From contig NZ_VIRS01000042.1 in assembly GCF_006912135.1 (NCBI RefSeq), positions 1-59,642 of the forward strand: a DNA stretch of 59,642 nucleotides, given 5' to 3'. A program made the position numbers and the translations under genes. A model generated the notes under the pieces. It saw only the letters and a program-made list of their open reading frames with translations, made no database searches and was not told the DNA's origin. This DNA is from Cryptosporangium phraense (lineage in GTDB: Bacteria > Actinomycetota > Actinomycetes > Mycobacteriales > Cryptosporangiaceae). Positions within the stretch are counted from its first letter, which is position 1. Each line of letters starts with the position of its first letter. Positions 43,561-48,222 of this stretch are shown in pieces.

Positions 43561-43960
43561 GTGGGCCGGTGGGGGCAATGTGCAAACCGGCCCGTCCTAC
43601 TACCAGGCACCCCGCTGCCGGTGCGTTTGCGCAGTTCACGGGAGCTCTGAACCCCGATCCAAGCATGCTACAGCGCGTCGTACGGTTCATTCGGACCGAA
43701 ACGCGCCCTGGCTCCCTGCCATCTGAGAATCGTCCGCCGGATGCGCGGCGAGGTACTGCCGGATCAACACCGCCAGCACATCCACCGCCCTCTGGTACTG
43801 CTCCTGCGTCATCGGAACGAACTGCGGAGCGCACAACCGCACCTCCGGCAGCCGCCCGCCACGACGATGAACCACAACCACCACTCCCCAGCCGGCCGGC
43901 CCGGTCGAGCACACCGACCGTAGCCGCCAGCAGCAGTCAGACGCTGCCCTAGGGCTCCCA
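43561..43960. repeat. Long direct repeat, copy A (flanks the two-gene module)
   Basis: About 400 bp that is strongly similar to 46577-46967 in the same orientation. It begins GTGGGCCGGTGG and contains the identical-looking stretch ATGTGCAAAC...CACCCCGCTGCCGGTGCGTTTG and the small minus-strand gene at 43687. Similarity ends near ACGCTGCCC. A single extra C near 43582 distinguishes this copy. Confidence 0.8.
43687..43914 (-). CDS. Small conserved island protein (paralogue of 46705-46938)
   Basis: About 75 residues from GTG 43914. The core HRRGGRLPEVRLCAPQFVPM and the helix QRAVDVLAVLIRQYLAAHP are almost identical in the gene at 46705-46938. Similar short ORFs with a RLCAPQFVPMT-type motif occur in actinobacterial integrative elements; the function is unknown. 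It may be a small regulator or structural helper. Start uncertain; upstream in-frame residues are not conserved between the copies, so a later start is possible. Confidence 0.6.
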   Translation of the reverse strand: MCSTGPAGWGVVVVVHRRGGRLPEVRLCAPQFVPMTQEQYQRAVDVLAVLIRQYLAAHPADDSQMAGSQGAFRSE

Positions 43961-46576: not shown

Positions 46577-46967
46577 GGGTGGGCCGGTGGTGGCAATGTG
46601 CAAACGGCCCGTGCTACTACCCGGCACCCCGCTGCCGGTGCGTTTGCTCAGCTCACGACTACCGTGAGCAGAATCCAGACGGGCGCCGCCGCGCGCCGCG
46701 CGGATCATTTAGACCGGAACTCGCCGTGGATCCCGGCGACCCTCGAATCGGCCGCCGGACGCGCGGCGAAGTACTGCCGGATCAACACCGCCAGCACATC
46801 CACCGCCCTCGCGTACTGGTCCTGCGTCATCGGAACGAACTGCGGAGCGCACAGCCGTACCTCCGGCAACCGCCCGCCCCGACGATGGGCCACAATCCAC
46901 CACTCCTCAGCCGATCGGCGCAGACGAGCACCGACCATAGCTGCCAGCAGTAGCCGCACGCTGCCCC
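46577..46967. repeat. Long direct repeat, copy B
   Basis: Same orientation and content as 43561-43960, about 3.0 kb apart. It carries the paralogous small gene at 46705. The 30-odd bases just before it (46546-46576) also match the sequence before the tRNA-derived copy at 50476. Confidence 0.8.
46705..46938 (-). CDS. Small conserved island protein (paralogue of 43687-43914)
   Basis: About 77 residues from ATG 46938 (ATG 46959 is possible). The core HRRGGRLPEVRLCAPQFVPM and the helix YARAVDVLAVLIRQYFAARP match the gene in repeat copy A with few changes, so the frame has been kept under selection in both copies. Function unknown; short ORFs of this type are found in actinobacterial integrative elements. 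Confidence 0.62.
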   Translation of the reverse strand: MVGARLRRSAEEWWIVAHRRGGRLPEVRLCAPQFVPMTQDQYARAVDVLAVLIRQYFAARPAADSRVAGIHGEFRSK

Positions 46968-47180
46968 GTCAACACCAGCCGACGGACAGACCAGAGCGGT
47001 AGCAGCGGCACGAGAGCGCGGCGGTGCGTCGCACGGCCGCTCGAGACCACGCAGGTCGACTGTTGTGAGGCGAACATTCCCGGCGTCACGCCGCCGATCG
47101 AACGGTGCGCCGTTCCGCGCGAATCTGGTTCCAGGACGGGGAAACACCTTCCCCGCGAAACTCTCCGGAGGCTGGACGAC

Positions 47181-47315
47181 ATGAGCGGCTGCTACGACAA
47201 CTCGTACGACTACTGCAACGACAACTACTCGTACGACTACGACTGCCGCCCGCGCCGTCGCCACCACAAGCGCCGTCACCACAACGACTGCTGGGACTAC
47301 AGCTACTGCAACTGA
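47181..47315 (+). CDS. 44-residue Cys/Tyr/Asp-rich peptide with basic His/Arg centre
   Basis: A 44-codon gene with GGAGG 9 nt before ATG 47181 and a strong terminator 19 bp after its stop. The product has five Cys (positions 4, 12, 22, 37, 43), eight Tyr, seven Asp, one Trp (38) and a strongly basic stretch at 23-34 (RPRRRHHKRRHH). Acidic Tyr-rich arms on both sides of the basic core give it a near-symmetrical layout. Repeated short units such as YDYC, YSYDYD and WDYSYC are seen. I recognise no family. It could be a metal-binding peptide, a precursor of a ribosomal natural product, or a secreted antimicrobial peptide; no leader/core boundary or modifying enzyme is visible. Two small hairpins (47101-47114 and 47138-47154) lie in its upstream region. 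Confidence 0.72.
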   Translation: MSGCYDNSYDYCNDNYSYDYDCRPRRRHHKRRHHNDCWDYSYCN

Positions 47316-47334
47316 CCCCACCAGCCCGCCAAAA

Positions 47335-47360
47335 GGCCCGGAGCAAATTCGCTCCGGGCC
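47335..47360 (+). terminator. Strong hairpin terminator after the small peptide gene
   Basis: GGCCCGGAGC (47335-47344) and GCTCCGGGCC (47351-47360) form a perfect 10-bp stem around AAATTC, preceded by AAAA. It confirms that the 47181 gene is a separate transcription unit. Confidence 0.85.
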
Positions 47361-47486
47361 GTTCCACGTCGACACACGGCCGGCCGGCACGATGATGAGC
47401 GTACGGCCGCTATGCGGCTACGAGAGTGCACGCCCGACCGAGACAGCGACTCGTCGAAAACATGACACCGCTAACCGGCTTCGGGC

Positions 47487-47492
47487 TACGGT
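47487..47492 (+). promoter_or_regulatory. -10 hexamer for leaderless small gene
   Basis: TACGGT fits TAnnnT and ends 7 nt before ATG 47500. Confidence 0.5.
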
Positions 47493-47499
47493 CGCCGCC

Positions 47500-47676
47500 A
47501 TGACCGACCCCGACGCGGTGCGCCTTCGACAGATCGCCGATGAGCTACGGGAGATCCGGAACCGCACATGCGAACCGAAGAGTAACCAGAATCCTCGATA
47601 TCACCGGCTATCGATGGCGGTGTCGTCGGTCGAGTTCGCGGCCGACGACATCGACGACGAGGCTGCGCTGGACTGA
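47500..47676 (+). CDS. Small hypothetical protein
   Basis: A 58-residue protein: MTDPDAVRLRQIADELREIR is a likely amphipathic helix, and the tail is acidic (FAADDIDDEAALD). No family recognised. The start is supported by a TAnnnT hexamer at leaderless distance and by the change from non-coding to coding-like sequence at that Met. Confidence 0.5.
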   Translation: MTDPDAVRLRQIADELREIRNRTCEPKSNQNPRYHRLSMAVSSVEFAADDIDDEAALD

Positions 47677-47814
47677 CCGTTCACGACGCTCGCTGCGCTG
47701 ATGAGAGTTAGTCGAGACGAAACGGCCGGCACGCCACCGGCCGACCGCGTGCCACGCTCGCGACGGCCACGCCGCCCGCGGCCTTGAGTCCGAGCGCGGT
47801 GGCACGATGGCGGC

Positions 47815-48222
47815 GTGAGTGACCAGATCGACGACCACTCGTGCCCGATGCTGGCCCGGCAACTCGCCCAGACCTGCGACCAACACCCGTCTCCATGGGA
47901 CTGCGCCCACCACGTCGTCGTGCGGCTGGACGACGGGCGCTACGGGCTGCCGGTGCGTACGGGCCCGGACGGCTCAGCGTCTAGTTGGATTGAGATCTGG
48001 CACTGCCCGTGGTGCGGCGCCGCGCTACCCGGTCACCGCACCCACCCGGCCCCGGACGACGGCGCCGACCGAGGTAAAGCCCTGACCAACGAGGAGATCG
48101 ACGCCCGCATAGACGCCTGGCACCACGGCGCCGGGGGCGCGATGGCGATGCATGAGTACCTGGGGTGGACGTGGGAGGAGTACCGGGCCTGGGCCGAACG
48201 ATCCGAGTTGCCCCGAGACTGA
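47815..48222 (+). CDS. Zn-ribbon protein (DUF6980-like) fused to a small acidic helical domain
   Basis: A 135-residue protein with two parts. Residues ~5-75 have CPMLARQLAQTCDQHPSPWDC, YGLPVRTG and HCPWCGAALPG, the cysteine layout of the DUF6980-type Zn-binding family often found near mobile DNA. Residues ~88-135 (NEEIDARIDAWHHG and HEYLGWTWEEYRAWAE) correspond to a short protein found on its own in many actinobacteria. The fusion is unusual to me. GTG 47815 is the start; CACGAT lies 6 nt upstream. Function unknown, perhaps regulatory. Confidence 0.7.
   Translation: MSDQIDDHSCPMLARQLAQTCDQHPSPWDCAHHVVVRLDDGRYGLPVRTGPDGSASSWIEIWHCPWCGAALPGHRTHPAPDDGADRGKALTNEEIDARIDAWHHGAGGAMAMHEYLGWTWEEYRAWAERSELPRD

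Follow-up and report, generated by a model that had tools for sequence, protein, structure and literature searches.

A dispersed multicopy family of small tyrosine- and cysteine-containing peptide genes with a common upstream site in the genus Cryptosporangium

The DNA analyzed here, hereafter the window, is a stretch of 59,642 nucleotides from Cryptosporangium phraense (contig NZ_VIRS01000042.1). On its forward strand, an open reading frame of 44 codons that starts with ATG at position 47181 and ends with the stop codon TGA at 47313-47315 (47181-47315 including the stop) specifies a peptide of 44 amino acids, MSGCYDNSYDYCNDNYSYDYDCRPRRRHHKRRHHNDCWDYSYCN, with five cysteine and eight tyrosine residues. 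As far as can be judged from sequence, this is a real, translated-looking small gene with a Shine-Dalgarno sequence and a hairpin of its own, and it belongs to a dispersed multicopy family that has so far been seen in a single genus. The gene was delimited from the list of open reading frames, a family search and the comparison of frame and codons. Its Shine-Dalgarno sequence GGAGG (47167-47171, forward strand) sits nine nucleotides before the ATG inside an almost fixed block, GGAGGCTGGACGAC-ATG, and downstream of the stop codon folding and a survey of stems revealed a terminator-like hairpin, GGCCCGGAGC-aaattc-GCTCCGGGCC, with ten perfect pairs (47335-47360, forward strand). The surrounding 66 nucleotides (47310-47375) fold with -25.5 kcal/mol (z = -3.6; two of 200 shuffled sequences folded at least as well). 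An earlier note on this DNA had described the reading frame with its cysteines and tyrosines, the GGAGG and the perfect stem, and all of them were recovered where it had placed them. It had also regarded the hairpin as the terminator of the gene, which holds for the stem but not for the remainder of such a signal, as no T run follows and a simple terminator scan of the window contains no entry for it.

With regard to distribution, the genome from which the window stems (G000) contains 21 matches to the window peptide, three of which, the window copy included, are identical in peptide sequence. Eighteen of these places carry an intact reading frame with Shine-Dalgarno sequence; at two, a contig end truncates the copy (C47 and C75; C and a number denote contigs of G000), and the copy at C27:93381 no longer has its start. 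When 61 genomes were searched with the peptide, matches appeared in four only, namely G000 and three others of the genus (G001, G002 and G003), and a profile built from eleven members retrieved the same four among 397 genomes of the order and none of the other 393 (E ≤ 0.001), with at least 18 matches in G000, at least 17 in G002, at least 11 in G003 and at least nine in G001. Copies that agreed both in reading frame and in the 60 bases next to it upstream were counted only once, and some G001 and G003 matches were partial or not taken whole; on this basis, there are 44 distinct copies with an intact frame (18 in G000, 16 in G002, six in G003 and four in G001). Because the same frame together with its Shine-Dalgarno sequence recurs in these 44 copies from four genomes, the window reading frame is more than a chance occurrence. 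Conservation of the frame in relatives, which had been set beforehand as the refuting test, was examined and found, so that the small-gene reading of the earlier note stands, although it had missed the approximately 20 dispersed copies and the upstream site common to them. Outside the genus, no relative was confirmed in the genome_contigs collection, from which the genus itself may be missing (19 pattern-matching stretches, none supported by tblastn), among viral contigs (600 pattern matches) or in plasmid and phage collections; confirmation by tblastn may be blunted because the query is so low in complexity. Narrow searches of the open-access literature yielded no account of such a family.

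The copies reside in discrete units of about 310 bp, which consist of a 43-bp promoter-like site, a leader, the near-fixed Shine-Dalgarno block, the reading frame and the hairpin, and which are embedded in mostly unrelated flanks. Unit boundaries were derived from pairwise blastn comparison of copies, each taken with at most 600-700 bp of flanking sequence. For the majority of the 60 pairs listed, homology extends from about -112/-139 to +165/+195 around the ATG and gives way to unrelated sequence beyond. Exceptions are overlapping neighbors in clusters, the copies in the window and on C1 and C12, which share sequence up to -160/-175, several pairs whose similarity reaches +205 to +241 on the 3' side (two pairs +306), and the C27:93381 and C19 copies, which have 714 bp downstream in common. 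Gene neighbors of the copies, as predicted by a crude gene caller, are unrelated to one another, and judged from this arrangement most copies are self-contained expression units.

In the window, the upstream site (TGTTGTGAGGCGAACATTCCCGGCGTCACGCCGCCGATCGAAC) occupies positions 47061-47103 and is followed by the 5' leader at 47104-47166, which contains the conserved stretch CGCGCGAATCTGGTTCCAGGACGGGG according to an alignment of leaders (both forward strand); in some copies, this alignment would also allow a local GGGG..CCCC hairpin. The site conforms to the consensus TGTt-N6-CGAACGtTcc-N-G-N-cGT, about eight further bases and CGATCGAgC, keeps a constant register in the aligned copies and appears to be promoter- or operator-like. 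A matrix derived from 43 distinct family sites, that of the window among them, assigns 55.0 bits to the window site, and in a scan of 702,334 bases, which covered the window and L031-L050 on both strands, all 32 hits above 8 bits were family units, which had also served to train the matrix and one of which is cut by a contig end. At the other end of the unit, a stem of at least ten pairs is present in 28 of the 44 copies and any stem of at least six pairs in 40, G-T pairs being allowed, and some copies have an altered stem that still pairs, e.g., GGGCCGGGGAGC/GCTTCCCGGCCC. The exact stem GCCCGGAGCG..CGCTCCGGGC, to which the window hairpin is not an exact fit, occurs at five places in G000 (four of them at units), at eight in G002 (seven at units), at one in G003 that belongs to no recognized unit, and at none in G001.

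Two candidates for the control of these units were considered and set aside. Control by FliA (sigma-28) found no direct match: upstream of the four best Flagellin_N-matching flagellin genes the sequence CTCA-N16-(G/A)GCGATG was recognized by eye, while the peptide units have AACG or similar in the place of CTCA and a GCCGATC that resembles the -10 element. Control by BldM/WhiI was likewise dropped, since the BldM sites TCACcCgnncGgGTGA or TGnnCCGnnCGGGTGA, as given in the accessible part of the source (PMC4125116), have no counterpart in the consensus of the unit site when compared by eye.

The leader, the Shine-Dalgarno block with the start codon, which is almost fixed across copies, and the hairpin are strongly conserved, and relic units retain parts of these elements without a reading frame. 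The conserved entity might thus be a regulatory RNA composed of leader and hairpin, in which the reading frame is incidental or acts as a sensor. We consider this very improbable, as RNAalifold found no consensus structure for 43 leaders (energy 0.0) and changes within the reading frame follow the genetic code. The intact frames comprise 30-44 codons, use the same start and all reach an in-frame stop. Within genomes, pN/pS amounts to 0.35, 0.39, 0.37 and 0.59. The between-genome values of 0.60-0.78 count against selection on a needed product, although pS is lowered by a strict use of C-ending codons. Third-base differences within genomes, compared for 43 of the 44 copies after exclusion of one divergent member, affect 34-52% of paired arginine CGN codons and 0-1.5% of codons for tyrosine, aspartate, asparagine, cysteine and histidine. 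From the preserved frame and the concentration of differences in arginine third bases we infer that selection acts on the peptide.

The codons also carry a signature of expression. CGT accounts for 43-44% of arginine codons in the copies from G000 and G002, compared with 8-10% in a background of 129 and 43 script-called genes from the two genomes, respectively, and 18-26% in rpsL, rpsG and fusA, and CGG for 10% in the copies compared with 40-43% and 20-28%. By this measure, codon usage of the copies is of the highly expressed type. A constraint at the level of DNA could conceivably underlie the fixed C-ending codons, yet these accompany a strong bias of the expression type. For 42 of the 44 copies, the nearest reading frame is found in the same genome, and this would fit recent expansion in each species and gene conversion alike. 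The nearest upstream region stems from the same genome for 36 copies, while the other eight are closer to, or tied with, a copy from another genome, and this difference between reading frame and upstream region leans weakly to gene conversion.

Not all copies have remained intact. Units without a reading frame are present at L126 and L138 and probably at L052 and L060; L127 has an altered Shine-Dalgarno sequence and start, and L121 and C27:93381 are broken early. Such damaged units suggest birth and death of copies, and their existence implies that not every copy is needed. The earlier note had furthermore located the window gene in an accretion island, which may be the case: G+C content is 0.58-0.68 at 42-54 kb as opposed to 0.69-0.75 in the remaining window profile, and at C19, the sole comparable locus, all four genomes are syntenic in the upstream block while the copy itself exists in G000 only and is missing from the approximately 1 kb read downstream in the other three. 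Among seven flanking proteins, one is found in all three other genomes (E ≤ 1e-12), one more in G002 only and five in their own genome only.

Observations of this kind, i.e., discrete units in mostly unrelated flanks, the presence/absence pattern at C19, relics that retain site and hairpin but no reading frame and neighbors that are mostly accessory, are those expected if the unit were a small selfish or mobile cassette, similar to a MITE or REPIN, that happens to carry a reading frame and whose copy number reflects spread and not a need for the peptide. We rate this explanation as unlikely, though deserving of serious attention. The longest direct repeat between a copy's own flanks averages 6.6 bases, compared with 6.8 for shuffled partners (31 copies), and hence gives no signal of target-site duplication; no terminal inverted repeats of the units were noticed by eye; no relative was confirmed in the viral, plasmid and phage collections; and the codon bias together with the preserved site, Shine-Dalgarno sequence and peptide argues that the product matters.

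Several further observations concern the surroundings of individual units. A gene for a large serine recombinase (L038 9382-11106, on C27 of G000; Pfam families Resolvase and Recombinase) begins about 34 bp from a copy that is cut at codon 4/5. In the same genome, the copy on C60 (L121 1490-1620) is interrupted at these codons too, with both junctions reading GCTAC, and contigs stop between GGCTG and CTACGAC in four cases (both ends of C75, one each of C47 and C60). The pattern suggests an integrating element for which the peptide gene serves as attachment site, although assembly also causes contigs to end at repeats. At L131 (G002 2966400-2968400), the leader and Shine-Dalgarno block of a unit have been joined to a small reading frame that is unrelated and membrane-protein-like, an apparent case of promoter capture, and at L050 7227-8417 (G002) a copy is adjoined by a gene that we take to be EF-Tu-like, apparently a divergent paralogue. 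Within the window, the strand opposite to the peptide gene contains an open valine-rich frame of 187 codons (46827-47390, reverse strand) that automatic annotation could call in place of the peptide. A 395-bp duplicate (43561-43949 and 46579-46966, 82% identity) carries a short reading frame (RRGGRLPEVRLCAPQFVPMTQ..) in both copies, and a gene for a DUF6980 protein (Pfam PF22400, E 2.6e-9) lies just downstream of the peptide gene (47815-48222, forward strand). The short stretch 47492-47698, which includes a small reading frame, matches L031 8956-9157 with 78% identity; it follows the unit in the window but precedes the one on C12, and pieces around the units have therefore been shuffled.

The peptides of the family are hydrophilic, 39-44 residues in length (30 in one copy) and made up of three blocks: an acidic arm rich in tyrosine, aspartate, asparagine and cysteine, a basic core that follows the pattern (K/R)PRRR-HH-KRR, and a tail with C-W-D-Y. 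Across eleven aligned members, P-R-R-R is invariant and the first histidine of the core nearly so. These core residues, the multicopy genes of the highly expressed type and a gene organization that resembles that of the small acid-soluble spore proteins (SASP) would suit a small nucleic acid-binding protein. Its basic core would hold DNA or RNA, its acidic arms would adjust the affinity, and it might, for example, shield DNA in spores or in stationary cells. We judge this quite unlikely, since the two members computed have almost no net charge (pI 6.9 and 7.6) and a Pfam search returned no family for the window peptide (E up to 1). Pfam was equally negative for a member of the G003 subfamily (E up to 0.1). 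In NCBIfam one of eleven members was matched at an unconvincing E of 0.35, the best PHROGs hit was likewise unconvincing (E 0.32), and no match was found in the PDB. A structure model computed from a single sequence, an input that makes it say little, showed no fold (pLDDT 45.5).

The earlier note had offered three functions for the peptide, a metal-binding peptide, a small antimicrobial and a natural-product precursor, and none of them gained specific support. The two members computed contain five cysteines, four or two histidines and six or seven aspartates, and in combination with tyrosine these residues could equip a metal-binding or redox peptide. This appears improbable to us, as cysteine is not strictly kept: its number varies between two and five in intact members (three to five without one divergent member), the first is replaced by serine in G002 6243847, middle ones are missing in several members, and the last is missing in all four G001 copies and in four of the six G003 copies, which speaks against a classical metallothionein. 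Small size, cysteines and multiple copies would also be compatible with a secreted antimicrobial or with a ribosomally made and modified natural product; a GRAVY of -2.0, a composition and hydropathy without any hydrophobic signal-like stretch, and sequences that are homogenised within a genome, not diversified, count against this, which we consider highly improbable. When the neighboring proteins were read by eye (with starts taken from a crude gene caller), neither a modifying enzyme nor an exporter or immunity gene was seen to recur among them.

Known systems offer partial parallels. The alpha/beta-type SASP of Bacillus and Clostridium are near-identical small proteins that protect DNA and are encoded by dispersed single-gene units with a common type of promoter, which provides for a high dose. 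The peptide family shows the same layout, with scattered copies that form single-gene units behind one type of promoter, by analogy only, yet its members are shorter than SASP, match none of the SASP models in Pfam and NCBIfam, are rich in tyrosine, cysteine and histidine and occur in up to about 20 copies. The short chaplins of Streptomyces are also small, multicopy, cysteine-containing actinobacterial proteins and are under developmental control, but they are hydrophobic and possess signal peptides, whereas the present peptide is very hydrophilic, without signal-like stretch and without Pfam match. Bacterial metallothioneins such as the mycobacterial MymT are again small and contain cysteine; the peptide differs in that it has no Cys-x-Cys array, its cysteines are not conserved and tyrosine, arginine and aspartate dominate. 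SspA of Actinoplanes missouriensis resembles the peptide in being a protein predicted to be disordered from a sporangium-forming actinomycete and is set apart by its description as a sortase-dependent spore-surface protein with a wall-localizing signal, for which the accessible part of the source describes no multicopy family (PMC13293333). Overall, the arrangement is one that resembles SASP or chaplin families, while peptide, unit and upstream site matched nothing in the searches made.

The upstream site may extend to other genes. A second small tyrosine-rich reading frame (MSYGTETYEESGSAG.DY..YENGYYYR..., 31-37 residues) is present in all four genomes (L072, L061, L141 and L145). It adjoins what is presumably an smc-like gene in three of them, in G000 lies about 0.7 kb away with another gene in between, and matched one of 394 genomes of the class, its own. 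The site scores 29.8 bits before this frame in G001, 22.2 in G003, -11.4 in G002 and -8.1 in G000; 70 Mb of simulated sequence contained no hit of at least 22.2 bits (maximum 17.9). The second frame could be a regulon partner, or it could have captured the promoter of a unit. A DUF3558 lipoprotein gene (Pfam) with 15.3 bits in G000, 9.7 in G002, 8.4 in G003 and 9.6 in G001 is a weaker candidate and only suggestive (two simulated hits of at least 15.3 bits, 28 of at least 8.4). Both were chosen post hoc from hits of a genome-wide site scan, and a later pattern was drawn in part from both. A gene in G003 and G001 that we assume to encode an M23-type peptidase was dropped because its site in G003 scored -2.0 bits.

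Gene number, codon bias and sameness of the product point to a bulk need. The reading that we favor, with confidence somewhat short of even, is that of a peptide made in bulk, perhaps with a developmental or structural role that would have to be deduced from these traits, whose dose derives from gene number. A presumed common regulator would switch the copies on together, gene number would thereby give a very high dose, and the peptide would have a stoichiometric role, either inside the cell or as part of a surface layer or spore layer. The link to spores is tentative, being suggested by the genus and by flagellin genes in all four of its genomes. The oppositely charged blocks might bind one another or a polyanion, for instance DNA, RNA or a wall polymer, and tyrosine, cysteine and histidine might lock the assembly through oxidation or metal bridging; what is said here of assembly, cross-linking and polyanion binding is guessed from composition. 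If the product had to be uniform, the likeness of copies within a genome would be accounted for. It is a bolder and doubtful, though not far-fetched, proposition that a motile actinomycete genus has invented a tiny self-associating polyampholyte peptide with tyrosine, cysteine and histidine, encoded by about 20 closely similar expression cassettes kept alike by gene conversion and placed, together with a second tyrosine-rich peptide, under a dedicated new promoter, which would amount to a new type of bulk biomaterial or condensate system.

If the favored reading is true, the genus would possess a large family of small proteins without entry in the libraries, with up to about 20 loci per genome, whose genes gene callers can miss or replace by an opposite-strand valine-rich frame. 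Two ideas could then be put to the test with the family, namely that scattered gene copies set dosage and that bacterial genes evolve in concert, and its upstream signature would offer a handle for finding the regulator.
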